DNA from: Halomicrobium zhouii
Lineage (GTDB): Archaea > Halobacteriota > Halobacteria > Halobacteriales > Haloarculaceae
DNA: 64,000 nucleotides
Direction: 5' to 3'
Assembly: GCF_900114435.1 (NCBI RefSeq)
Contig: NZ_FOZK01000001.1
Location: 806,001 to 870,000, forward strand
Shown: one piece after another, positions 360 through 58,590 of the stretch
How positions within the stretch are numbered: position 1 is the first letter of the stretch
How the letters are laid out: every line of letters begins with the position of its first letter
Translations under genes and position numbers: made by a program
Notes under the pieces: model-generated
What the model saw: only the letters and a program-made list of their open reading frames with translations
Databases searched by the model: none
Told to the model about the DNA's origin: nothing

Positions 360-1529
360 GTGAACGCCGTCGTCATTCCGACAGGGCACGAGGCCCAGGG
401 GTACGTCTGTGTCAGGTCGCTCTCGGAGCAGGGCGTCCGGACTATCGTCGCCTCGGAGAAGGAGGGGGTTCCGGCGGCGGCGTCTCGGTACTGCGACGAG
501 TCCGTCGACCTGCCGCCGCCGAAAGAGGACCTGCTGGCCTACCGGGACGCCCTGCTCGAACTGGCCGAGCGGGAGACCGTCGAGACGATACTTCCAGTCC
601 GGCCGGAGGACGGCTACGTCCTCTCTCGTTTCCGCGAGTCGTTCGAGGCGCACGTCTCCCTGCCCGTCCCGTCGTTCGACCAGCTACGAACCGTCCACGA
701 CCGCCTGCGCCTCGCCGAGGCGGCCGAGGCGGCGGGCGTGCCGGTGCCAGAGACGCGCCGGCTCGCCGACGTCGACGACTGGGGCCCCGAACGCATCGTC
801 AAGTCCCGGTACAACCTCGTCGTCGACGACTACGTCGACCACCTCGACCCGGGCGAGTCCGCCGTCGTCAAGGCGGTCAAACACCTCCAGCCGGGAACCG
901 AACCGGACCCCGACGCGATCCGCGAGGCGTACCGCCACGACCCGATCGTCCAGGCGTTCGTCCCCTACGACGAGGAGTACATGTTCGCCGGGCTGTACGA
1001 CCACGGCGAGGCGCTGGCCACCTTCCAGCACCACCAGGTCCGGGGCACCTCCTACACCGGCGGCGGCGGCGTCTACCGCCAGTCGACCGACATCCCCGAA
1101 CTCGACCGCGTCGCCGACGACCTGCTGTCCCACCTGGAGTGGCACGGCCTGGCCTGCATCGAGTACATGCGCGACGAGCGCACCGGCGAGTTCGTCCTCA
1201 CGGAGATCAACCCCCGGATGTGGCAGTCCCTGCCCTCGACTGTCCGCGCCGGCGTCGACTTCCCCCACTACTACTGGCTCCAGGCGACGGACCGGACCGA
1301 CGAGATCGACCCGGACTACGAGATCGGCGTCGGGAGCCACCTGCTCCACGGCGAAGTCGGCTACCTCCTGAGCATCCTCACCGACGACTCGCCGCTCGTC
1401 CAGCGGCCGTCGCTCGCCGGGACCGCCTGGGAGATAGCGGCCTCCTGCCTCTCGGAGCCCCACTTCGACTACCTCAACCTCGACGACCCCGGGCCCTTCC
1501 TCCAGGGCCTCCGGAACAAAGTGAAGTAG
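360..1529 (+). CDS. ATP-grasp carboxylate-amine ligase family protein
   Basis: A 389-residue ATP-grasp enzyme, expected to join a carboxylate to an amine or thiol with ATP hydrolysis; the substrate cannot be told. Residues 1-100 form a pre-ATP-grasp Rossmann-like domain ('VVIPTGHEAQGYVCVRSL'). The ATP-grasp fold follows, with a lysine in 'VVKAVKHLQ', a hinge segment 'IVQAFVPYDEEYMFAG', a glycine loop 'RGTSYTGGGGVYR' and the Mg-binding 'TEINPRMWQSLP' near residue 280. The start is GTG; a TATA-like tttaac (331-336) lies 27 nt upstream and GAGGAG (345-350) fits a ribosome site. Such ligases often lie in haloarchaeal surface-polysaccharide regions, and the GNAT and TylF-type genes downstream fit that. 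Function beyond the fold is inference. Confidence 0.8.
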   Translation: MNAVVIPTGHEAQGYVCVRSLSEQGVRTIVASEKEGVPAAASRYCDESVDLPPPKEDLLAYRDALLELAERETVETILPVRPEDGYVLSRFRESFEAHVSLPVPSFDQLRTVHDRLRLAEAAEAAGVPVPETRRLADVDDWGPERIVKSRYNLVVDDYVDHLDPGESAVVKAVKHLQPGTEPDPDAIREAYRHDPIVQAFVPYDEEYMFAGLYDHGEALATFQHHQVRGTSYTGGGGVYRQSTDIPELDRVADDLLSHLEWHGLACIEYMRDERTGEFVLTEINPRMWQSLPSTVRAGVDFPHYYWLQATDRTDEIDPDYEIGVGSHLLHGEVGYLLSILTDDSPLVQRPSLAGTAWEIAASCLSEPHFDYLNLDDPGPFLQGLRNKVK

Positions 1530-1676
1530 CTGGGACGAGGTCGGCTGAGAGTAGCTGTGGACCCGTGGCGAGCGGGTGTCAGTGGCCGATTCACAGTCGG
1601 TTGATTGTGCTCTGGCTGTCGATGCTGTGACTGCTGGGCGTGTCTGTGAGTTGCACGGATAGTTCGTCTGAATTGC

Positions 1677-2224
1677 GCTGGAAGAAGCGACACCGCCAAC
1701 AGCCAGAAAGCCCTCGGCGCGCTCCGGTCCCGGGGCTTGCTGCGCTCCTCACTTCGTTCCGGTGCCCTCAGCGAAAGCTGAGGACTACGCGAGAGCTACG
1801 CTCTCGCGGTCGCTTGCTGCGCCCGGGTTCCCGGACCCCGCCTCGCCCTTTCATTCCGCCAGGCATCGCAGCCCTGCCCTTCCCTTGGTCGCGCGATGAA
1901 ACGCGCTCCCGGCCGACCGGCGCGCGGTTGCGGGGCGGTCAGGACGCGTGTCGCGCCGCTAGGCGCGACCGGGGAGGGGTGGCGGAGCCAATCGCGAGCG
2001 CAGGGAGGCGCCGACCGGAGGGAGGGGCCTCCGAACGAGCGAACGGGGAGCGAAGCGACCCGTGAGCGCGTTTTATCGCGCGAGCGACGGCTGTCCCTGG
2101 GGGACTGAAAGGGCGAGGAGCGCTCGACGAAGCACGGCGACGCAAGCACCGAACGAAGTGAGGCGCGCAGCGAGCCGCGCGAGTCGAGCGCGCCGAGGGC
2201 TTTCGAGGTAGTGTCGTTTCCAGC
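1677..2224. repeat. Giant imperfect palindromic element, copy 1
   Basis: This non-coding 548-bp stretch folds back on itself. The outer arms pair (ctggaagaagcgacac at left with gtgtcgtttccag at right), then GAAAGCCCTCGGCGCGCT (about 1705-1722) pairs with AGCGCGCCGAGGGCTTTC (about 2188-2205). Further in, CCTCGCCCTTTCA pairs with TGAAAGGGCGAGG, and GGTCGCGCGATGAAACGCGC with a segment containing GCGCGTTTTATCGCGCGAG. At the tip GTCGCGCC / GGCGCGAC closes a GCTA loop (1950-1969). Many blocks are shared with the element at 10921-11446. The open frames inside are low-complexity and appear only because of the GC-rich palindrome, so I call no gene. It could be a non-autonomous mobile element, a structured RNA or a nucleoid/replication site. 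Confidence 0.75.
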
Positions 2225-2312
2225 CACGTCACCAGTTCGAAACCTACCAAACGAGACCTCTACACACTGTACTAGCCATGAACGAACGACGACTCCTACG
2301 ACGAAAATCACC

Positions 2313-3545
2313 TCACGGCCGGTCGTTGAACAGGACGAGGTGCCTGAGAATCGTCCGTTTCTCCAGGCCGCCGCCGAGGGCGCCCGAGAGGACGCCGATG
2401 GTGGCGATAAAGCCCGCGATGCGGACGAGTTCGACGACGCCGACGGTCGGGTCCTCCAGGCTGGGCCAGTTCGTCATCAGGTTCGGCGGGAAGACGACGT
2501 ACTCGATGGTGAGCATGATCCCCCCGACCAGCAGGTAGAGGCCGACCATGGCGAGCACGAGGATGCAGAAGACGGCGACGTTCACCAGCGCGACGTGTTC
2601 GGTGAGGACTTGCTGGCGCCCGCGGGGAAACAGCAGATTGTGCGAGAACAGCAGGTAGACTGCCGCGAGCAGGATGGAGCCGACGGCGAACAGCGCGGCG
2701 GTGCCGTCGGTGATGTTCAGCCCGACGTCCCACGTCTCGGCGCTAAAGACGACGACGAGCGTCGGCACCAGCGCCGCCGTCGATAGCTTCGGCAGCGACA
2801 GCGGGAGCGCGAGTGCGCGGCTCCTGACCACTGCGGCGGCCACCTCCCCCGGGTTCCGGGCGACGCTGGCGAGGTAGAACCACAGCCGTCCGAGGGGGCC
2901 ACGGGCGTCCGTCTCCTCCTCGGGGATCCGGCTCGCCTCGCGGCGGAACTGTCTGCTCAGCGTCGTGTCGAACCGCGGGACGCCGTCCCGTTCGGCGTCG
3001 AACGTGAACGGCGCCATCGCGGAGTCACCCCCCGCGTCGTGGCCGGCGCCGAGGACGTGGCCGACCTGGTGGAGCAGCAGTGCCGCGCCGTTCCAGCGCA
3101 CCGCCGCGTCCTCGAGGGACCGCCGGGGCTGGTCACGGGGCGATAGCCGCAGGGTTCGCGTCGAGACGACGGCGACGCGTCCCAGCGGCGACGCCAGCCC
3201 GGGCACGCGACGCTCGCGCCGGGAGAGCAGCGGGACGTCGGTGACGACAACGACCAGGTCGTAGGGGCCCTCGACCATCCGCAGCGCCGCCTCCTCCAGG
3301 AACTCGGAGGGGTACCGCGCGTCGTAGTCTGTCAGCTCCTCGGGCTCTTCCGCGTGGAACCGCCAGCTCGCGTCCGTCGCCGACGCCAGTTCGCCGACGA
3401 CGTCGTGGGCCGCCCGGTCGGCGAAGGCCGCGAGGTCGACGCCGTCGCTCCGCGGAGAGTGGGCGACCAGCAGCCCGACGTCGACGACGACGTCCCCGTC
3501 GGCGTCGGTCGTCACCGCCTCGCCGTCCGCCGCTGCCCCGGTCAT
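2313..3545 (-). CDS. Membrane protein with degenerate archaemetzincin-like domain
   Basis: A 410-residue protein in two parts. Residues 20-180 resemble a zincin: 'HQVGHVLGAGH' (159-169) matches HExxHxxGxxH except that the catalytic Glu is Gln160, and Met177 lies 8 residues after the last His, exactly as in archaemetzincins (HExxHxxGxxHCx4CxM). The two Cys of that motif are Asp170 and Ser175. Residues 240-400 hold about four membrane segments ('ALFAVGSILLAAVYLLF', 'VAVFCILVLAMVGLYLLVGG'). No Sec or Tat signal is seen. Metal binding by three His is possible, but peptidase activity looks lost. The gene is single, next to palindromic element 1. The role is unknown; pseudo-protease is inference. 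Confidence 0.72.
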   Translation of the reverse strand: MTGAAADGEAVTTDADGDVVVDVGLLVAHSPRSDGVDLAAFADRAAHDVVGELASATDASWRFHAEEPEELTDYDARYPSEFLEEAALRMVEGPYDLVVVVTDVPLLSRRERRVPGLASPLGRVAVVSTRTLRLSPRDQPRRSLEDAAVRWNGAALLLHQVGHVLGAGHDAGGDSAMAPFTFDAERDGVPRFDTTLSRQFRREASRIPEEETDARGPLGRLWFYLASVARNPGEVAAAVVRSRALALPLSLPKLSTAALVPTLVVVFSAETWDVGLNITDGTAALFAVGSILLAAVYLLFSHNLLFPRGRQQVLTEHVALVNVAVFCILVLAMVGLYLLVGGIMLTIEYVVFPPNLMTNWPSLEDPTVGVVELVRIAGFIATIGVLSGALGGGLEKRTILRHLVLFNDRP

Positions 3546-3864
3546 ACGTTCGTTTGGAACCGCCGACGGAAAAGCGTCAATCGACTCGACGGCGGTCCCG
3601 AGCGGCCAGGAATCGCCGCCGGGCCGCGCTAGCTGTTCGAAGGTTCCTGACGTCCGCCACTGGGACGCCGAGAATCGCTTCGAGCCGATGTCTGCACCGC
3701 TCGCAACGGGCCGTTACCGGTCGACGGGTCGTTGCCTTCTGCCTCCACCCGGCAATGGCGCCCACTACCCAGGAGGTACCACAGACCTAACTGAGTAACA
3801 CGAACCTGTCGGTGTATTGTGCAATATATATTGAAACTGGTGGGAGGCGGAGGTCCGGGCACCG
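3546..3864. other. Intergenic region before the GNAT gene
   Basis: This 319-bp gap separates the minus-strand metzincin-like gene from the plus-strand acyltransferase. I see no convincing gene; the small open frames are arginine-rich shadows. The last 80 bases are AT-richer and carry the palindromic TATA element at 3822-3833. A GGGAGGCGGAGG stretch about 20 nt before the ATG could act as a distant ribosome site. Confidence 0.5.
3822..3833 (+). promoter_or_regulatory. TATA-box promoter of the GNAT gene
   Basis: CAATATATATTG is a perfect 12-bp palindrome and a strong archaeal TATA box, about 35 nt before the ATG at 3865. The same core (caatatatatta) recurs at 6645-6656 before the mntA gene. 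Confidence 0.6.
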
Positions 3865-5004
3865 ATGACTGGTGCCACCGATCCGGACCGGGAACGCGGG
3901 GCGACGGACCCGTACACGGTCCGTCGATTCCGTCCCGAGGACAGGGACGGCGTGATAGCGCTCGATCGGATCGTCTGGGACCGTGACCGGGGCCCCGACT
4001 GGTTCCGGTGGAAGTACGAGTCGAACCCGTTCGTCGACGACGTCCCGGTGTTCGTGGTCGAGCGTGACGGCCAAATCGTCGGGGCGCGTCCGTTCATGGC
4101 CTTCCGGATACGCACCGGCGAGACGGTCGTCGACGCACTGCAGCCGAGCGACACCATGGTCCACCCGGATCACCGGCGACGCGGCCTCTTCACCCGCATG
4201 ACGCGGCGAGCGATAGCGGCCTACGCCGACGAGGAGCCCAGCTTGCTGTTCAACTACCCGAACGACGCCGCCCGGCCCGGGTACGAGAAACTCGGCTGGC
4301 GGACGGTCGGACCGCAGGTGACGTTCTACCGGATTCAGGACCCCGCACGGCTCCTCTCGGCCCGGTTCGACGCTGCGGCGGAGCCGCTCGTCCGCCGGAC
4401 GGTCCGGCCGCTGGTCCGCGCGGTCCGTCGTCCTCCCAGCCGACTGCCCCGGCGTGCGGACGTCGACGTCGCGTCCCAGCGCGGGGTTCCGCACGCGACG
4501 CTCGCGTCGCTCTACGAAGGCAGTGTCCCCCGCAGGTTCCACGCGCTCCGCGACGAGGCGCTCCTCGCGTGGCGGTTCGGGAGCCCCGTCTGGTCCCGAC
4601 GGACGTATCTCGCGAGACGCGACGGCACCGCCGTCGCGGCGCTGGTCGCGCGGACCCGGACACTCGCCGACGGCGTCACCGTAACCCAGATAGCGGACGT
4701 CCTGCCGATGGCCGGCGACGAGTACGAGCGGGGGGCCGCCACGACCCTCCTGGGACCGGTGGTCCGGGACCACGCGGAGTCGACGCTTATCGCCGCAATC
4801 ACGGGCCCGATCCGTTCGGCGGCCCTCGAACGGCACGGGTTCAGGCCGGACGACCGGCCACCGCTCTCGTGGGTGCGCGACCGGTCCAAGACCCTCGCGG
4901 TCCGGCCCATGCGGCTCTCGGCCTCGTCGTGGACGCTGGACGGGCGCCCGATCGACGATCCGGCGAACTGGACGGGGACGTTCGTCGAGCGCGACACCAC
5001 GTGA
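3865..5004 (+). CDS. GNAT-family N-acetyltransferase
   Basis: A 379-residue acyltransferase with two GNAT-like halves. In the first half, 'DWFRWKYESNPF' is the substrate-side segment seen in acyltransferases of polysaccharide gene clusters, and 'MVHPDHRRRGLFTRM' (about residues 96-110) is motif A, the acyl-CoA pyrophosphate loop (R/Q-x-x-G-x-G/A type). The second half repeats 'LLAWRFGSP' and ends with 'ALERHGFRP', a typical GNAT C-terminal strand. Acetyl-CoA is the likely donor; the acceptor is unknown. It is probably cytoplasmic, as no signal or membrane segment is seen. The nearby ATP-grasp and TylF-type genes make a role in a surface glycan or modified lipid plausible, as inference. Confidence 0.8.
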   Translation: MTGATDPDRERGATDPYTVRRFRPEDRDGVIALDRIVWDRDRGPDWFRWKYESNPFVDDVPVFVVERDGQIVGARPFMAFRIRTGETVVDALQPSDTMVHPDHRRRGLFTRMTRRAIAAYADEEPSLLFNYPNDAARPGYEKLGWRTVGPQVTFYRIQDPARLLSARFDAAAEPLVRRTVRPLVRAVRRPPSRLPRRADVDVASQRGVPHATLASLYEGSVPRRFHALRDEALLAWRFGSPVWSRRTYLARRDGTAVAALVARTRTLADGVTVTQIADVLPMAGDEYERGAATTLLGPVVRDHAESTLIAAITGPIRSAALERHGFRPDDRPPLSWVRDRSKTLAVRPMRLSASSWTLDGRPIDDPANWTGTFVERDTT

Positions 5005-5085
5005 CGGCGACGCGCGCCGAAGTATGACCTTCTTACGAACGGTTTCGAACGTATAACAAACTGATGGGGCCGGGTCTCTCGGTGC

Positions 5086-5985
5086 ATGTTCGAGACGTCA
5101 GACGCGCGTCGCGCGGTGGCCCGCGCGTACCGCCTCGCGATCGCCGCCGCGGCACTGCCGATCGTCCTCGCCGACTACTTCGACCCGGACACCGGCGCGG
5201 CCTACGACGTCGGCCTCGCGTCGAAACTCGTCCTCGCGGCGCGGATGGTACGGAACAACTGGCAGATCCCGACCGGATCGAGCTTCGTCGAACACCTGGT
5301 GATGGCAGCCGCCATCCTCAAGGTTCCCCCGGAGGTCGACGGCTGCGTCGTCGAGTGCGGCTGCTTCAAGGGCGGTAGCACCGCCAACCTGTCGCTCGTG
5401 GCGGGGCTGTGTGACCGCACCCTCCACGTGTTCGACTCCTTCGAGGGGATGCCCGAACCCACGGCGGACGACGAGACGCACCTGGTCGTCGACTCCGAGC
5501 GGGTCCACTCCTACGAGGAGAACTCCTGGGAGGCGACCGTCGCCGAGGTGGAGGCCAACGTCGTCGCCTACGGCGACCCCGGCGCCGTGGTGTTCCACCC
5601 GGGCTACTTCGACGAGACGATGCCGGGGTTCGACGAGCCCTGCGTCGCCGCCTTCCTCGACGTCGGCCTCCGGACGTCCGCGGAGACGGCCCTCGAACAC
5701 CTCTGGCCCGTGCTCCGGAACGACAGCCGCTGTTTCACCCACGAGGCCAAGCACATGGACATGGCCGACCTCTTCTTCGACCGGGAGTGGTGGCGCGAGA
5801 CGCTCGATTCGGAGCCGCCGGGACTCGTCGGCGCCGGGAGCGGCATCGGTCTCCACCCCGGTCCGAACGGCTTCTCCAGCCTGCTGGCTTACACCGTCAA
5901 GAACCCCGCCGTCGACGACTACGCCGTCGTCGCCCAGACGGGCGCCGACAACGTGGTCGACGTGGGCCGGACCGGGTCGGACTGA
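5086..5985 (+). CDS. TylF/MycF-family SAM methyltransferase
   Basis: A 299-residue protein related to macrocin O-methyltransferase TylF, which methylates sugar hydroxyls with SAM. Motif I is 'VVECGCFKGGSTANLSLVA' (about residues 88-106), followed by 'LHVFDSFEGMPEPTADD', the TylF signature of the second acidic loop. 'VAAFLDVGLRTSAETALEHL' corresponds to the metal-binding Asp region, and 'NGFSSLLAYTVK' closes the domain. The first 60 residues are hydrophobic and family-variable. The start is set by gtataacaa (5051-5059) about 30 nt upstream, giving an almost leaderless mRNA. It is probably a sugar O-methyltransferase for a surface glycan; the substrate is unknown. Confidence 0.82.
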   Translation: MFETSDARRAVARAYRLAIAAAALPIVLADYFDPDTGAAYDVGLASKLVLAARMVRNNWQIPTGSSFVEHLVMAAAILKVPPEVDGCVVECGCFKGGSTANLSLVAGLCDRTLHVFDSFEGMPEPTADDETHLVVDSERVHSYEENSWEATVAEVEANVVAYGDPGAVVFHPGYFDETMPGFDEPCVAAFLDVGLRTSAETALEHLWPVLRNDSRCFTHEAKHMDMADLFFDREWWRETLDSEPPGLVGAGSGIGLHPGPNGFSSLLAYTVKNPAVDDYAVVAQTGADNVVDVGRTGSD

Positions 5986-6040
5986 ACACACCCGTTGCGG
6001 ATCCTCGACGCTTAACCTCCTGGGCCGGCCAGATGCGCGC

Positions 6041-6631
6041 ATGACCGACCGCAACGCCGCAGACGGGCCGACCGGCGACGACCTCGCCTGGGAGACGCTC
6101 GACGCCAGCACCGCCTACAGCTGCGACGGGTTCGACGTGGTCAACCAGTCGGTTCGACTCCCGGACGGCACCGAGTCGGAGTTCGACTACCTCTCGGAGA
6201 GCGAAGCCGTCGTCGTCCTCCCGTTCACGCCCGACGGCGACGTCGTCGTCATCGACGAGTGGCGCCAGGCGGTCGACCGCGTCAACCGCGGCCTGCCCGC
6301 GGGGAGTATCGAACCCGAAGACGACGACCCCGTCGCCGCCGCCCACCGCGAACTCGTCGAGGAGACCGGCCACGAGGCCAGCGTGGTCGACCACCTCACC
6401 AGCGTCGAACCGGCCAACGGCTTCGCGGACTCGTACTTCCACTACTTCGTCGCTCACGGGTGTGAACCGACGGCCGAACAGCGACTCGACCACAACGAGT
6501 CCATTCGGGTCGAGACGACGACGTTCGACGAACTGGTCGAGGACGTGCGTACGGGCGACCTCCAGGACGGCCGGTCCGCGTTCGCCGTCCTCCACTACGC
6601 GCTGTTCGAGGACGGATCGTCGCAGCGATGA
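6041..6631 (+). CDS. NUDIX hydrolase, ADP-ribose pyrophosphatase-like
   Basis: A 196-residue NUDIX enzyme that should hydrolyse nucleoside diphosphates linked to another moiety. The Nudix box sits near residue 85-110: GSIEPEDDDPV followed by 'AAAHRELVEETGHEA'. The metal-binding REx2EExG core is intact. Against Gx5Ex7RE, one residue is inserted and the first Glu is Asp. The preceding 'VVVIDEWRQAVDRVNRGLPA' matches the beta-sheet and QxR segment of ADP-ribose pyrophosphatases, where Arg and Glu contact the substrate. I chose the ATG at 6041 because the longer frame only reads through the upstream methyltransferase gene out of phase. The gene follows that methyltransferase by 55 nt. Confidence 0.85.
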   Translation: MTDRNAADGPTGDDLAWETLDASTAYSCDGFDVVNQSVRLPDGTESEFDYLSESEAVVVLPFTPDGDVVVIDEWRQAVDRVNRGLPAGSIEPEDDDPVAAAHRELVEETGHEASVVDHLTSVEPANGFADSYFHYFVAHGCEPTAEQRLDHNESIRVETTTFDELVEDVRTGDLQDGRSAFAVLHYALFEDGSSQR

Positions 6632-6644
6632 CAGACTGACGCTG

Positions 6645-6656
6645 CAATATATATTA
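6645..6656 (+). promoter_or_regulatory. TATA-box promoter of mntA-hepT
   Basis: gCAATATATATTAcc is an almost palindromic TATA box, 24-35 nt before the mntA start at 6680, so transcription should start close to the ATG. Confidence 0.6.
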
Positions 6657-6679
6657 CCGGGGAGCCTCAATTCAGACGT

Positions 6680-7114
6680 ATGGACGAGCCTGGGGAGCCA
6701 GCCATCGACGAGGTAGACGTCGAGGGGATGCGCGAGTATCTCGCCGGTGAAGAAGTCGTGTTCGCACTCCTGTTCGGCTCGCACGCGCGCGGAACCGCCG
6801 ACGCCTCGTCGGACGTCGACGTCGCGCTTCGATTCCCCGGCGAGATGGACGCACACGAGCGGTTCCGCCGACGCAACCGTATCGACGCAGCACTGCAGGA
6901 GTACGCCGACGGGTTCGTCGACGTCAGTGACATCAGTTCGTTGCCGATCCCGGTCGCGCACGCTGCCCTTCGAGACGGCGTCCGTCTCGTCGGCGACGAG
7001 CAGACCATCGACGAATACCGGACCCAGGTCCAGACCGAATACGAGTCCTCGTCAGCCGCACGGAAAGCCGACGACGAAGCCTTCATCGAGCGACTCGCCC
7101 GGGGAGAGATCTAG
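6680..7114 (+). CDS. mntA: MntA-type antitoxin, minimal nucleotidyltransferase
   Basis: A 144-residue minimal nucleotidyltransferase. The polymerase-beta signature is intact: 'LLFGSHARGTADASSDVDVA' near residues 31-50, with GS and two Asp for the nucleotide and metals, and a third acidic residue in 'FVDVSD'. In characterised MntA/HepT modules this enzyme transfers AMP onto a tyrosine of the HepT toxin and so silences it. The stop codon TAG (7112-7114) directly abuts the ATG of hepT, so the two are co-transcribed and likely translationally coupled. The C-terminal 35 residues are charged and helical. Assignment as antitoxin rests on the partner gene and motif; activity is inferred. Confidence 0.85.
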   Translation: MDEPGEPAIDEVDVEGMREYLAGEEVVFALLFGSHARGTADASSDVDVALRFPGEMDAHERFRRRNRIDAALQEYADGFVDVSDISSLPIPVAHAALRDGVRLVGDEQTIDEYRTQVQTEYESSSAARKADDEAFIERLARGEI

Positions 7115-7546
7115 ATGGTGGACGAGGAGATCGTCGTCGACAAACTCCGGCACATCAACGAGTACACCGAGGACCTGAAGCAGATGCGCGGAATGTCAAA
7201 GGACAAATACGTGAACGACGTCGTGATTCAACGGGCCGTCGAACGGACGTTGATGAACCTCATACAGTCCTGTATCGACCTCGCTCAACACATTCGAGCG
7301 GCCGAGAATCTCTCACCGAGTGGAACCTCGAAGAAGGAAATCGAAGCCCTCGGGGATGCGGGGATCATCTCTGACGAGACACAGGCACGGATGGAGGAGG
7401 CAGTGGGATTCCGGAACATCCTCGCGCATCGGTACGGTGACGTTGACCACGACATCGTGTACGACGTACTCCACAGCGATGTTCACTGGTTCGAACAGTT
7501 TCAGCAAGCGGTCGCGCAGTGGTTTCAGGACCGGGACGCCACGTAG
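7115..7546 (+). CDS. hepT: HepT-type toxin, HEPN ribonuclease
   Basis: A 143-residue all-helical HEPN protein. The decisive motif is 'RNILAHRY' near residues 103-110, which matches Rx4HxY: Arg and His form the RNase site across a dimer, and the Tyr is the residue adenylylated by MntA. Around it, 'ALGDAGIISDETQARMEEAV' is typical of HepT before the active site. HepT cleaves RNA, notably tRNA ends in studied examples. The ATG follows the mntA stop without spacing. GC and codon bias are lower than in flanking genes, which fits a mobile defence or addiction module. Confidence 0.87.
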   Translation: MVDEEIVVDKLRHINEYTEDLKQMRGMSKDKYVNDVVIQRAVERTLMNLIQSCIDLAQHIRAAENLSPSGTSKKEIEALGDAGIISDETQARMEEAVGFRNILAHRYGDVDHDIVYDVLHSDVHWFEQFQQAVAQWFQDRDAT

Positions 7547-7608
7547 CTTCCCGCCATCCTCGTCCAGAAACCGATACCTTACTTCCCGTGCCGTCCCTGT
7601 CCACGCCC

Positions 7609-8406
7609 ATGAGCTACGACCTCTTCGACACGGAGTCCGGCAACGCAGTCGTCGTCGCACTGGATCACGGCCTCGGGATGGGCGCGCTGGAGGGGTTCGA
7701 GGACGCCGGCGCGACGCTGGATGCCGTCCTCGCGGGTAATCCCGACGGCGTCCTCGTCGGGCCGCACTTCGCCCGACGGTATGCTGACCGATTCGACGAC
7801 TCGGACGCCGACCTGCTGGTCACGGCGGACGTCGCGACGTTCTCCACCCGACCGGGCCACGACGAGGCGATGGACATCTGGACCCAGCCCTTCGACGTCG
7901 ACTCGCTGCTGGATCTCGACCCCGTCGGCGTCAAGACCGTCCTCGTCTTCGGTCGGGAGGACCGCGAGCTGTTCCAGGAGAACATCGAGGCCGTCGCAGA
8001 CCTCGCCGAGCGACTCCGGGGCACCGGCGTCCCGCTCATCGTCGAACCGGTCGGCTGGGGAAAACGCGTCCCGGAGCCCCTGGAGACCGACCCGGAGTAC
8101 GTCGCCGACGCCTGCCGCATCGCCTGGGAGATCGGCGCCGACGTTCTCAAGGCGCCCTACACCGGCGAACCGGACACCTACGCCGACCTCGTTGACGCCT
8201 CGCCGGTCCCGGTCACCGTCCTCGGCGGGCCCGCCTCCGGGTCGACGCGGGCGATGCTCGGGGACATCGAGGAAGCCGTCGGCTGTGGTGCGCGCGGCCC
8301 AGTCATCGGCCGCTCCGTCTGGCAGACCGAGGACCCCCAGGCGGTCGTCGAGGCACTGAACGGCGTCGTCCACGAGGGGAGGAGCGCCGACGACGTCTGG
8401 GGGTGA
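7609..8406 (+). CDS. Class I aldolase, DhnA/FbaB family
   Basis: A 265-residue TIM-barrel aldolase of the archaeal class I fructose-bisphosphate aldolase group. 'VVVALDHGLGMG' near residue 14 is the first strand with the conserved DHG. 'GADVLKAPYTGEP' near residue 180 carries the Schiff-base Lys (usual context VKxxYTG), and 'VTVLGGPASGS' is the phosphate-binding loop. The family includes fructose-1,6-bisphosphate aldolase and 2-amino-3,7-dideoxy-D-threo-hept-6-ulosonate synthase of archaeal aromatic amino-acid synthesis. The substrate cannot be fixed here; a glycolytic-type sugar phosphate is likeliest. The ATG at 7609 was preferred over an in-frame upstream ATG inside the hepT end. Confidence 0.75.
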   Translation: MSYDLFDTESGNAVVVALDHGLGMGALEGFEDAGATLDAVLAGNPDGVLVGPHFARRYADRFDDSDADLLVTADVATFSTRPGHDEAMDIWTQPFDVDSLLDLDPVGVKTVLVFGREDRELFQENIEAVADLAERLRGTGVPLIVEPVGWGKRVPEPLETDPEYVADACRIAWEIGADVLKAPYTGEPDTYADLVDASPVPVTVLGGPASGSTRAMLGDIEEAVGCGARGPVIGRSVWQTEDPQAVVEALNGVVHEGRSADDVWG

Positions 8407-8454
8407 GGAGTCGGTGCGAGTCAACGCCGACCGGCAGTTTCTGGCGAACGTCCG

Positions 8455-8787
8455 TCACTCACCGCCCCATTCACGGATCGGCGGGATCAGTTCGAGCGTC
8501 GCCGCGGCGAGGTAGAGGCCGACGGCGATCAGCGCGACGCTGACTGCGACGCCGGCCAACCCGGCTCCGGTGGACCCGGCCGAGGCCACCACGCCGAGTA
8601 ACCCGACGTACGCGATCACGAAGGCGACGCCCACCAGGAGGACGGTGCCGATAACGCCGAGGATGGCGTCCTCGACGGCCTTCCTGACGACGGTGTAGAG
8701 GACGGCCTCGTCGATTTCGGCGGCCGCTCCGCCGTCCGCTACCGGCCCGCTGTGCGCAGTGCCGTCACCGCTTCCGTCGGGGACCAT
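8455..8787 (-). CDS. Small membrane protein, two transmembrane segments
   Basis: A 110-residue protein of unknown function. After a polar Gly/Asp-rich N-terminus come two hydrophobic segments, 'ILGVIGTVLLVGVAFVIAYV' and 'GVAVSVALIAVGLYLAAATL', and a short C-terminus ending in IREWGGE. I chose the ATG at 8787 since the longer frame upstream is Ser/Arg-rich and unlike haloarchaeal protein. The gene stands alone, convergent with the aldolase. No domain was recognised. Confidence 0.6.
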   Translation of the reverse strand: MVPDGSGDGTAHSGPVADGGAAAEIDEAVLYTVVRKAVEDAILGVIGTVLLVGVAFVIAYVGLLGVVASAGSTGAGLAGVAVSVALIAVGLYLAAATLELIPPIREWGGE

Positions 8788-9005
8788 ATAATCCGGAGTC
8801 TCCGTCGAGCGAAATAAGTTCAGGGGTGGCGATTCTGTCGATGACCGCCGACCTGATCGGCGATCCACGTCGGTCGTGACGAGACGCACCTGTGGGACCG
8901 TGCTCGATATGACAACGGAGTTCGATTCGGGCGACATCGACGTCGCCTGCTTGCACTGGAGCCGCCGGTGTCGTCAAAGGCGTCGAGCGCGTACCGGGGA
9001 CCACT

Positions 9006-9758
9006 ATGGAAGCCACCGCCCGAGAGACACTCTACAAAGCGCCCCGAACGGACGTGATACAGGATCAAGGGCAGTTCAGGACGCACTTCAACTTTCCCGG
9101 CCGAAACCTGCCGGACCACGACGACCACGGCTACGGCCCGCTGGCGACCGTCGTCGAGTCGTTCATGGACCCGGACACGCTCATCGGGATGCATCCCCAC
9201 CGGAACGAGGAGATAATCTCGTGGGTGCCCGACGGCGTCATGCGCCACGACGACGGCGAGGGGAACAAGCTCGTCACCGACGCGGACCACCTGATGGTGA
9301 TGGGTGCGGGCACCGAGTTCTGGCACGAGGAGCGCACGCTCGCCGAGGACCCGCCGCTCCGGATGCTCCAGATCTTCGTGCGCCCGCACAGCCTCGACCT
9401 CCAGCCGCAGATCCAGCACGAACCCGTCCCGGACCCCGTCGCCGACGAGTGGCGACACCTCTTCGGGCCCGAGGACTCGGACGCGCCTCTTTCGGTGCGC
9501 AACGAGGTGGACTTCTACGACGCCCACCTCGAGGAGGGGGCCAGCGACGACCTCCCCCAGATTGCCGGGCGGGACGCGTACTTCTACATCTTCGAGGGCA
9601 CAGTAGAGGCCGCCGACGCGCGCTTCGAGGAGGGAGAGAGCGGGCTGCTCGTCGACGACGACGGGCTGACACTCACGGCACGGGAGGACGCGCTGGTCGT
9701 GGCCTTCCTGATCGACCCGGACGCGCCCGTCACCCGGCAGGGAACGATCGGTCGCTGA
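9006..9758 (+). CDS. Pirin family protein
   Basis: A 250-residue bicupin of the pirin family. The N-terminal cupin carries the metal ligands in 'IGMHPHRNEEIISWV' (about residues 60-74) plus a later His/Glu pair in 'GTEFWHEE', matching the HxH...H...E iron site of pirins. The second cupin (about 160-245) is shorter and lacks clear ligands. Bacterial and human pirins act as quercetinases or redox-sensing regulators; the archaeal role is unknown. It is single, with no signal peptide, and so likely cytoplasmic. Confidence 0.85.
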   Translation: MEATARETLYKAPRTDVIQDQGQFRTHFNFPGRNLPDHDDHGYGPLATVVESFMDPDTLIGMHPHRNEEIISWVPDGVMRHDDGEGNKLVTDADHLMVMGAGTEFWHEERTLAEDPPLRMLQIFVRPHSLDLQPQIQHEPVPDPVADEWRHLFGPEDSDAPLSVRNEVDFYDAHLEEGASDDLPQIAGRDAYFYIFEGTVEAADARFEEGESGLLVDDDGLTLTAREDALVVAFLIDPDAPVTRQGTIGR

Positions 9759-9794
9759 GTGGTCGCCAGCGCGGCGACGAGTAGTGAGACTCCG

Positions 9795-10811
9795 TCAGTC
9801 GAGCAGCGAACGAACTTCGTCCGCAAGCCCCGCACCGATGGCTTCCATCCCCGCGTCGCCGGGGTGGAGCAGGTCGGTCGTCAGGCCGGTGGCGTCCAGC
9901 AGGTCGGGGCCCTCGACGAGGTGGACGTTGTCCGTCGCGCAACTTTCGACGGCCGACCGGAGCGACGACCGGAACGCCGCCGCGCGCTCACGGTCGCCGT
10001 CCCGGACGAGATCCTCGTGGTAGGGGAACAGCGTCACGCAGACGACCGGCTTCCCGGGGTTGGATTCGACGACGGTCCGGACGAAGGCGCGGACGCGCTC
10101 GTCGAACTGCGCCTCGGTGAACCCCCTGTTTGCCATGTTCACCGACAGCGCGAGCGTCGCCACGTCCCAGTCGTCGCGGTTCGCGAGGTACTCTGCCATC
10201 GCCGGTTCGCAGAAGGCCGACCCCGACGCCCCGAGGTTGACCGGGTCGACGCCCAGGCGGCGGGCGACTCGCGAGACGTACGTGAGGTGACTGGCCGAGG
10301 CGGCGGCGCCCTCGGTGATAGAGGTCCCGTGGGCGAGGTACCGCGTGTCCGGGAGTTCCTCGTCCGTCGGCGGGCGGCACGCCCCCGCGACGTCGTGGAC
10401 GGCGACGGGTTCCCAGGCGTCGAACCGCAGGCGACAGACGCGCGGGTCGAACGCGCCCGTCGCTACTTCGTCGTCGAGCGCGCTGATTCGGTCCGGCACT
10501 GTCAGTCGTACCGTCTTCGGGACAGGGCCGAACTCCACGGGCTCCTCGCCCTGGAAGTCACCCCAGAACGGGCGGAGCACGGTTCTCCCCTGCGCCGAGA
10601 CCGTCACCCGGACCGTCGCGTCGTCCGCCTCCGGGACGAACCGGAGTTCGCTGTTCGTCGGGTGGCCCATCCGCTCGCGGGCGTCGACGTTGAGTTCGCG
10701 CCCGAGGCCGCCGGGAGCGCGACGCAGCCGGTGGCCCCCGGGACTCCACGGCGCCGCGGCCGTCTCGGCGACGTTGTGGAGCGCGGCACCGGGCAGTTCG
10801 TCGTGGATCAT
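9795..10811 (-). CDS. SGNH/GDSL-type hydrolase
   Basis: A 338-residue esterase-like protein. Residues 1-140 form a beta-rich domain; the SGNH fold follows. Block I is 'YLAHGTSITEGAAAS' with the nucleophilic Ser in GTSIT, block II has 'LGASGSAF' (Gly), block III 'ALSVNMANRG' (Asn), and block V 'TDLLHPGDAGMEAIG' supplies the Asp-x-x-His pair. It could deacylate or deacetylate a carbohydrate, since a sandwich domain before an SGNH domain is usual in carbohydrate esterases. No signal peptide is visible. I chose the ATG at 10811; a TATA-like stretch (tatcata in the minus strand, about 10832) lies upstream. Upstream in-frame codons run into palindromic element 2. Confidence 0.78.
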   Translation of the reverse strand: MIHDELPGAALHNVAETAAAPWSPGGHRLRRAPGGLGRELNVDARERMGHPTNSELRFVPEADDATVRVTVSAQGRTVLRPFWGDFQGEEPVEFGPVPKTVRLTVPDRISALDDEVATGAFDPRVCRLRFDAWEPVAVHDVAGACRPPTDEELPDTRYLAHGTSITEGAAASASHLTYVSRVARRLGVDPVNLGASGSAFCEPAMAEYLANRDDWDVATLALSVNMANRGFTEAQFDERVRAFVRTVVESNPGKPVVCVTLFPYHEDLVRDGDRERAAAFRSSLRSAVESCATDNVHLVEGPDLLDATGLTTDLLHPGDAGMEAIGAGLADEVRSLLD

Positions 10812-10920
10812 ACGTTGCGTCACACTGCCCCCGTATGATATGTATGCCGACTGGCCGCGCTCGTGTGGTGAGTGAGTATGTGAATTTAACGGGTGATTTG
10901 GTGAGAGGGTGCTGGAAGAA

Positions 10921-11446
10921 ATGAGACTGTTAACACCCAGAAAGCCCTCGACGCGCTCTCTGGAGCCAGAATCGAGACCGCAAACAATCAGAAAGCCCTC
11001 GGCGCGCTCGGGTCGCGGGGACCACCTTGCGCTCCTCACTCCGTTGCGGTGCTAAGGGGTCCCGGCTTCCCCGACCCCGCCTCGCCCTTTCAGTCCTCCA
11101 GGACGGCACAGCACCACAGCCCTGCCCTTCCCCTGGTCGCGCGATGAAACGCGCTCCCGGCCGGGCGGTTGCGGGCTGCCAGGAAGTGTGATTCGCGCCG
11201 GACGGCGCGAATCCGGGGAGGTGTGGGGAGGCAACCGCGAGCACCTCCGTGGCGCGAGCGATGCTGATCCTGGAGGATTGAAAGGGCGAGGCTCGGTGAA
11301 CGAAGCACGGACCCATAAGCACCGCAGCGAAGCGAGGAGCGCAGTGCGGTCCGCGCGAGTTCAGCGGGCCGAGGGCTTTCCTTTGTTGACGGTCTCGATT
11401 CTGTCTGCAGAGAGCGTGCGGATGGCTTTCGGGGTGTTTGAACTCA
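10921..11446. repeat. Giant imperfect palindromic element, copy 2
   Basis: A 526-bp non-coding palindrome related to the one at 1677-2224. Pairs from outside in: ATGAGACTGTTAACACCC (10921-10938) with gggtgtttgaactcat; AGAAAGCC plus CGCGCTCTCT with AGAGAGCG plus GGCTTTC (11411-11430); CAGAATCGAGACCG (10967-10980) with CGGTCTCGATTCTG (11390-11403); GAAAGCCCTCGG with CCGAGGGCTTTC; CTCCTCACTCCGTTGCGGTG with its near complement at 11320-11340; CCTCGCCCTTTCAGTCCTCC with a 24-nt partner ending at 11291 (one mismatch). The tip is GATTCGCGCC/GGCGCGAATC around GGAC (11190-11213). The sequence CAGCCCTGCCCTTCCC and the following 30 nt are nearly identical in both copies. The open frames inside are artefacts of the palindrome. 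Confidence 0.78.
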
Positions 11447-11541
11447 TGCTCACTGCTGAAACGCCGAACTCCACTGATCGCTCACTGCACACACCGTATC
11501 GGCCGGGACCGGAACTTCCGAAACGCCGATCTCGAACTCAC

Positions 11542-12513
11542 TCACTCGTCGGCGAAGATCTCCCGGACGACCGACTCGATGTCGCGTTCGGCAGACCAGC
11601 CGAGTTTCTCCCGAGCGCGTGAGGTGTCGACTTCGAAGGTGTCCGTCAGCGTCTCGTCGTCGGCCCGCGGGTTCTCGACGAGTGTGACCTCGGGCCGCTC
11701 GCCCGCGTGTTCGGCGGCGACGTCGGCGACGAGGTTGGCCACCGTCTCGACGCTGGGGTCCTCGTCGCTGGCGACCTCGTACTTCTCGACGCCCGTCTCG
11801 CCGGCCTCGAGCTGGTCGAGCAGGCGCTCGCAGCTGCGGACGTACGCGCGGGCGACGTCGACGACGTGGACGTAGTTGCGCGACTGGGTCCCCGGTTCGT
11901 ACACCGTCAGCGGCTCGCCGGCTTTCGCGCGGGAGACGAAGAAGTTGATGACGGTCCCCTTGGAGACGGTGGTCCCGTCGACGTCGTGGGACCCGTAGAG
12001 GTTCGAGATCATGTACTGGTGGGCCGGGAAGGCGCCCTCGGCGAACGTGTCGATGGCGCGCTCGCTGAGGAGCTTGGTCCGGCCGTACCAGTTCATGGGG
12101 CCGCGGGGCTGGTCGACGGTGATGGGGAACGATTCGGGGTCGCCCAGCACGGCCATGCTGAACGGGAACACCAGGCCGGCGCCCGATTTTCGGCAGAACC
12201 AGGCGACGTTGTTGGTGCCCTGGACGTTGACGTCGTAGGCCAGGTCCTGGTTCTCCTCGCAGTCGTCGACGCCGCTGACGGCGGCGAGGTGGAGGACGAT
12301 ATCGGCGCCCTCCAGTGCGGCCTCCAGGCGGTCCCGGTTTCGGATGTCGACGTGGTCGACGTCGAGGTCGCCGATGGAGCGGACCTTGGCGAGGTAGAAG
12401 TTATCGATGGCGGTCAGTTCCCAGTCGGGATGTGCTTCCTGTATCTCTCTGGCGACGCGAGAGCCGATGTAGCCCGCGGCGCCGGTTATCGCGATGTGTG
12501 GTTCGTCAGTCAT
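11542..12513 (-). CDS. NAD-dependent epimerase/dehydratase
   Basis: A 323-residue extended short-chain dehydrogenase acting on a nucleotide sugar. The NAD-binding loop is 'ITGAAGYIGSRVA' at residues 9-21, 'LHLAAVSGVDD' follows beta-4, and the catalytic pair is in 'NWYGRTK' (YxxxK) near residue 143. The Ser/Thr of the triad is in 'PFSMAVLG', which is Ser-Met instead of the usual SSxxVYG. The protein ends with 'LGWSAERDIESVVREIF', the usual C-terminal helix of sugar epimerases. It is the last gene of a three-gene minus-strand run (14665 to 11542), spaced 21 nt from its neighbour. Likely product: a sugar for S-layer or surface glycans; exact reaction unknown. Confidence 0.82.
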   Translation of the reverse strand: MTDEPHIAITGAAGYIGSRVAREIQEAHPDWELTAIDNFYLAKVRSIGDLDVDHVDIRNRDRLEAALEGADIVLHLAAVSGVDDCEENQDLAYDVNVQGTNNVAWFCRKSGAGLVFPFSMAVLGDPESFPITVDQPRGPMNWYGRTKLLSERAIDTFAEGAFPAHQYMISNLYGSHDVDGTTVSKGTVINFFVSRAKAGEPLTVYEPGTQSRNYVHVVDVARAYVRSCERLLDQLEAGETGVEKYEVASDEDPSVETVANLVADVAAEHAGERPEVTLVENPRADDETLTDTFEVDTSRAREKLGWSAERDIESVVREIFADE

Positions 12514-58208: not shown

Positions 58209-58590
58209 GGCAGCCTGGGGCTCCGCATCACACGCATGGTCAGTACAGGCGTGCGGAACCAGCTGTAATTACAACTGGTGTAGTTAAATGATTTTCCGAG
58301 CTGGATCCGGGTGTTCCAGAACTGTCAGGTCGAGGGAACGCTCGATTCGTCGGTGGAACGCGCAGTACTCTGCGATTCGTCGGTCGCCAGTCCCACCGGT
58401 GAGCCCACGCAGATTCGGGCAGTCACCGACCAGCCGCGCTGACCGACACGGGAGTTACCCGCATCGTGCAGTGAATCGGGCCGAGGAGGTACATAGTCGT
58501 ACAGACCACTATTAGTAACCGTCTTGGTCCGATCGCGGCGACTCTCTCCGTACGGCGACGAAACACTCCGGTCGATCCGACGCTCCCCTA
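58209..58590. other. Gene-free region with a 20-bp palindrome
   Basis: No gene is supported here. At 58259-58278 CCAGCTGTAATTACAACTGG is a palindrome with one mismatched pair, followed by gtagttaaatg (AT-rich). CGATTCGTCGGT occurs twice about 30 nt apart (58346 and 58374). The last 90 bases probably carry the promoter of the phosphoesterase. The region may be the scar left by the insertion that truncated the SDR gene. Confidence 0.45.

Follow-up and report, generated by a model that had tools for sequence, protein, structure and literature searches.

The window analysed here, the whole 64-kb stretch at C1:806001-870000 of the 4.25-Mb, six-contig genome of Halomicrobium zhouii (G000), carries two long imperfect palindromes, copies A and B, which belong to a dispersed family of non-coding intergenic elements built on a structured hairpin motif of ~105 nt, hereafter M. 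In a preliminary description, the two structures were reported to fold nearly end to end, to share blocks of sequence in the same order and to encode no credible protein, and all three statements hold. When each copy was compared with the window by BLAST, it recovered the other copy and its own reverse complement; copy B aligned with its own reverse complement over 507 bp at 67% identity (E=7e-48), and copies A and B proved to be 79-82% identical in the named blocks, which follow each other in the same order. The predicted folds have energies of -365.9 kcal/mol for copy A (548 nt) and -362.5 kcal/mol for copy B (526 nt). A window-wide scan with R1, a covariance model of M, gave exactly four matches (E 6e-17 to 3e-22), one inverted pair in each palindrome. 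The open reading frames of copies A and B have no Pfam match, and Rfam release 15, searched at its gathering thresholds with the whole window, returned 0 matches.

Copy A lies between two convergent genes, one at 360..1529 (+) with a weak ATP-grasp match and one at 2313..3545 (-) with no Pfam match. Its left outer flank (1640..1705), which is kept among the copies (gtgtctgtgagttg...gctggaagaagcgacaccgccaacagcc) when the flanks of 40 of them are set side by side, is followed by the left arm, an antisense M with an apical hairpin insertion (1706..1857, - strand; model R1, 87.2 bits, E=6e-17). The central domain (1858..2101), supported by the covariation of the centre, consists of a conserved CAGCCCTGCCCTTCCC block, two covarying hairpins and then a strand that pairs with CTCGCCCTTTCA of the left arm. 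The right arm is a sense M (2102..2204, + strand; 111.0 bits, E=3.5e-22), and the right outer flank (2205..2278), defined by flank comparison, ends in ...ctgtactagcc, a junction that was confirmed at the orthologous site of a close species, G006. Copy B is situated between a gene for a GDSL-like lipase/acylhydrolase (9795..10811, -) and one for an NAD-dependent epimerase/dehydratase (11542..12513, -), all four neighbours being named from gene calls and Pfam. It comprises a left outer flank with an extra outer GAAAGCCCTCGACGCGCTC rung (10877..10990, flank comparison), an antisense M (10991..11096, - strand; R1, 100.3 bits, E=8e-20), a central domain (11097..11274) recognised by self-comparison and by the covariation of the centre, a sense M (11275..11380, + strand; R1, 103.4 bits, E=1.7e-20), and a right outer rung with outer flank (11381..11505, flank comparison). 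The limits first proposed for the palindromes, 1677-2224 and 10921-11446, are slightly short; because the outer flanks are conserved across the 40 compared copies, the unit is now drawn at roughly 1640-2278 for A and 10877-11505 for B.

A search of the genome with copy A yielded 179 matches, which merge into 40 places on C1, C2, C3, C5 and C6, that is, on five of the six contigs and on both strands. With one further copy besides these, the family counts at least 41 merged copies, a lower bound, as M alone occurs at further places; the search for additional copies proposed earlier was therefore productive. The 40 mapped copies are all intergenic, none of them lying within a called gene, and their gene contexts are convergent in 15 cases, tandem in 16 and divergent in 8. 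Elements are 450-700 bp long, and the full unit, of ~630 bp, is an inverted pair of M around the central domain with conserved outer flanks (left ~65 bp and right ~75-95 bp, from the sequences of all copies). These flanks are partly and imperfectly inverted relative to each other. Inside them come a terminal pair (GAAAGCCCTCG / CGAGGGCTTTC) and then the left and right hairpins, the left one being the reverse complement of the motif in the right; inside the hairpins there is a second long pair (CTCGCCCTTTCAGTCC / GGACTGAAAGGGCGAG), and in the central domain there are two hairpins, the stems of which change blockwise, as with GTCGCGCC/GGCGCGAC and GATTCGCGCC/GGCGCGAATC. Left and right arms of a single element change independently of each other, as in L094, where two different apical classes occur together, and for this reason separately folding hairpins are favoured over one giant stem alone. 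The single long stem of the preliminary description can indeed form, but covariation speaks for two separate hairpins, left and right, with a central domain between them. On the right side of L072 (C1:240805-240950), tandem units of ~50 bp (agagcgggccgagggctttcgaggcgtttgcagtatcgacgccgactcc) lengthen the outer rung of the palindrome, and copy B has a similar extra rung on both sides.

M itself combines a GAAAG/CTTTC foot with an internal loop rich in purines, a stem that varies but is always paired, and a conserved apical part, AAGCACCGCAG...GAGCGCAG. Covariation was assessed on 110 M sequences taken from two other genomes, G048 and G054, from plasmids and from ~40 other sources. Because the 3' foot came out misaligned when MAFFT was given two M classes together, the covariance model rests on a single class and served to align all the others. 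In the resulting alignment 97.3% of cells pair, 27 of the 31 pairs have double changes, and 716 cells with double changes were counted, against 196 after shuffling; the covariation score is 0.616, and it falls to 0.04-0.07 when the partners are slid. Similarly, the central domain has 63 double changes against 21.6 in shuffled alignments, and in the alignment of copies from H. zhouii 48 of the 134 predicted pairs are changed on both sides. The observations that would have spoken against the preliminary description, namely a lack of further copies, a lack of covariation or a conserved reading frame, were not made: there are more copies, covariation is strong in M and in the centre, and no reading frame was seen to be conserved.

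The wobble pairs carry additional information on the strand that folds. Read in the M sense, columns with at least two Watson-Crick types have G-U and A-C in a ratio of 77:7, and in columns switching between GC and AU or between CG and UA the intermediates are 62 wobble pairs and 3 A-C. These counts carry the caveat that the alignment was fitted to a model; their lean recurs in the seed alignment, for which no structure was used. Since copies are found on both strands, the asymmetry is unlikely to stem from a mutational bias between strands. The excess of G-U on the M-sense strand indicates that selection acts on M folded as one strand, in one of its two orientations, and this strand is most likely RNA, with single-stranded DNA (ssDNA) as the alternative. 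Of the options offered earlier, a structured RNA is borne out as far as strong structural selection is concerned, while the wobble asymmetry leaves a choice between RNA and ssDNA for the folded strand.

M is not confined to this genome or to this arrangement. Among 117 sampled genomes from the order Halobacteriales 78 contain it, compared with 0 of 69 genomes outside the order in a sample of the phylum, so that the search of other haloarchaea advised in the preliminary description has revealed a motif spread through the order. Exact seed matches in a named scan include Halobaculum, Haladaptatus, Haloarcula, Halorussus, Halopiger, Halosimplex, Haloglomus, Halonotius and others, and at least 34-49 copies per genome are present among the matches listed. 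Elsewhere M is single, forms an inverted pair with a spacer of ~30 bp, or is part of another large element. In G048 it occurs singly or as a -/+ pair, the spacer usually measuring about 30-35 bp, and inverted pairs are present in several genera; in G054 a ~400-bp element, which has variable hairpins of its own and conserved ends, contains it as its 3' part. The single copies of G048 are mainly upstream of genes or between divergent genes, whereas those of G054 are mainly between convergent genes. The element of this different lineage, G054 (L188-L207), begins at its 5' end with GGTCAGTACAGG, continues with the variable hairpins and M, closes with a tail that is conserved, and has at least 20 copies.

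A different version is carried by plasmids. Of the 21 records of haloarchaeal plasmids that were inspected, 18 (L032, L062-L066, L068, L328, L329, L339-L347), drawn from Haloferacaceae, Natrialbaceae, Haloarculaceae, Halobacteriaceae and Haladaptataceae, have a single M ~430-720 bp from the start codon of a gene for an RPA-like DNA-binding protein, on the opposite strand, so that the M-sense strand is the template strand of this gene. The protein matches replication factor A of NCBIfam (E=1e-18). A highly conserved, structured non-coding region of ~550-740 bp, with M at its end, precedes the start of the gene. MPF_T is the type assigned to the majority of the plasmids, one of which has VirB4, primase and ParA genes nearby. 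The conserved interval is a candidate large RNA, origin or single-strand promoter and, beside an RPA-like gene, a concrete candidate for an element with a role in regulation, as an origin or in transfer.

The behaviour of the chromosomal copies over short evolutionary distances can be followed in G006, in which most element flanks are 88-99% identical to those of H. zhouii. Sixteen sites carry an element in both genomes, and their contents are no more alike than those of unrelated sites: identity is 0.893 for orthologous and 0.892 for non-orthologous pairs, absolute values that are inflated by cheap gaps without effect on the comparison, the mean fractional rank of the orthologue is 0.504, and none ranks first. 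The same holds when the left arm, the centre and the right arm are taken separately. At the shared site A, for example, the flanks are 94.6% identical, and the element is 71-84% identical except for one 42-bp piece at 95%. Within H. zhouii, copies at distant loci have identical blocks of 200, 195 and 167 bp. Four sites, that of B included, are without M in G006. At the position of copy B (L145, C12:131030-132885), G006 has no M and instead ~1.85 kb of DNA that apparently includes a PAS/histidine-kinase-like gene. At the L087 site, the central domain of the G006 element (C11:169200-170500, L166) is inverted relative to that of H. zhouii. Synteny at L072 is broken in G006, where the flanks are on two contigs (L148, L149) with an element at each break, which suggests a rearrangement through the repeat, or else assembly breaks at repeats. 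Element positions are thus mostly stable between close species, and the sequences that occupy them are interchanged. With the reshuffled contents, the inverted centre, the shared identical blocks and the split at L072 taken together, gene conversion and recombination between copies would be the simplest explanation. Persisting sites with interchanged occupants provide a natural system in which ectopic gene conversion and repeat-mediated rearrangement could be measured in archaea.

The explanation favoured, with modest confidence, is that these elements are a haloarchaea-wide family of non-coding intergenic repeats that resembles the enterobacterial REP/BIME repeats (repetitive extragenic palindromes and bacterial interspersed mosaic elements) or the miniature inverted-repeat transposable elements (MITEs), is built on the structured M unit as RNA or ssDNA, and is homogenised by recombination. 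M would be kept as a folded module, alone, in inverted pairs or inside larger structured elements, and ectopic gene conversion and recombination between copies would interchange the contents of sites. The original spread may have depended on a trans-acting enzyme for which the folded M unit is the recognition site, and the copies have presumably been mobile.

Several results weigh against such a family. On the inspection of flanks that had been suggested, no target-site duplication was seen; the single compact empty site, L084, is not clean enough to place the insertion point, since the surrounding intergenic DNA differs too, which leaves gain and loss there indistinguishable. None of the TnpB and Y1 transposase genes of this genome, the two groups of transposases scanned, carries or adjoins M: the eight tnpB loci are all without it, and the Y1 genes (C2 and C4) have no M beside them. 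Moreover, M is conserved in many genera, and at one fixed locus of plasmids, more strongly than would be expected of a purely selfish repeat. The non-autonomous transposon family envisaged earlier is borne out as a dispersed multicopy family, with at least 41 copies; the features of a classical transposon, a target-site duplication and a linked transposase, were not found.

REP units of enterobacteria are ~35 bp long, have a GTAG foot and are associated with a RAYT (REP-associated tyrosine) transposase. Like REP/BIME, the M family is intergenic, palindromic and multicopy and occurs as single units or inverted pairs. Unlike them, M is ~105 nt long, has conserved internal loops, is conserved order-wide and has a GAAAG/CTTTC foot rather than GTAG, and the Y1 genes are unlinked to it. 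Prokaryotic MITEs, including cases from Halobacterium and Haloquadratum, have been reviewed (PMC10969869), and the family is similar to these in being non-coding, multicopy and mainly intergenic, with ends that are partly inverted; it differs in that neither a target-site duplication nor a parent element was found and that structure is selected over the whole unit. The family is accordingly filed neither as REP, given that the foot and a linked RAYT are lacking, nor as MITE, given that no target-site duplication or parent enzyme was found.

A rather unlikely alternative is that M is a functional RNA class, either a non-coding RNA or an untranslated-region (UTR) element, which would act through protein binding to its conserved internal loops, the palindromes being multicopy genes or processing sites. 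Such a role would fit the RNA-like covariation with conserved loops, the wobble asymmetry on the M-sense strand, and the single-copy structured region of ~550-740 bp with M at its end, which keeps one fixed locus in 18 of 21 plasmid records from five families. However, orientation and distance to genes are not uniform (divergent or upstream in G048, convergent in G054, all contexts in H. zhouii), no promoter was recognised by eye, and content is freely interchanged between loci. The omega RNAs of IscB and TnpB are structured RNAs with standalone multicopy versions, that of TnpB overlapping or following the 3' end of tnpB, and M is comparable as a conserved, RNA-like structured unit with many standalone copies, yet it is not at TnpB genes here and is followed, in the two lineages examined, by a conserved flank and not by a variable guide. 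In a broader and still tentative form, M might be a new class of haloarchaeal structured RNA that is both the single-copy 3' domain of a conserved plasmid RNA of ~600 nt and an amplifying, interchanging chromosomal repeat at fixed intergenic sites, that is, an RNA-based family of mobile or recombining elements in archaea. That M represents a new RNA class is a real possibility. No relevant description of the family was found in the open-access literature, subscription papers being outside the search, so that its novelty is provisional. Structured RNA motifs and repeat families described from haloarchaea are few, and M combines very strong covariation with dozens of copies per genome and order-wide occurrence.

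The reading in which M acts as folded ssDNA is improbable. Here M would serve as a hairpin in recombination or replication or, in the manner of Frpo on plasmid F, as a single-strand promoter within the leading region of conjugative plasmids, and the chromosomal repeats would be derived from it. It is in keeping with the position of M and the structured region before the gene of an RPA-like ssDNA-binding protein, on mostly MPF_T-typed plasmids, with M-sense as the template strand. However, wobble pairs are better tolerated by RNA than by DNA, no relaxase or oriT was identified, and the chromosomal copies are without an RPA-like neighbour.

Still less probable is an ordinary MITE of a known haloarchaeal insertion sequence. 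The imperfect terminal similarity, the strictly intergenic copies and the differences in presence and absence would accord with it, but the structural covariation across the whole unit is extreme, the length is 450-700 bp, no target-site duplication was seen and no autonomous element with these ends was found, the matches of the terminal motif CACCTGTACTGACC elsewhere in the genome marking no transposase. The cruciform site in double-stranded DNA, bound by a chromosome-organising protein, that had been proposed earlier on is scarcely credible despite long palindromes scattered along the chromosome, as the strand-specific wobble asymmetry argues against a purely double-stranded site and the two arms vary independently, not as one cruciform stem.

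Further candidates were rejected: protein coding, with no Pfam match; a virus origin, with no match in a phage collection; a bidirectional terminator or fixed UTR element, as gene contexts differ between genomes; and a TnpB omega RNA or Y1-transposase repeat, the TnpB and Y1 genes here being without M. The element-end motif CACCTGTACTGACC, with at most one mismatch, is also present at four places without M, including window positions 58238-58251 (-) and L333, L334 and L338; these are not insertion-sequence ends and adjoin AT-rich, promoter-like stretches.

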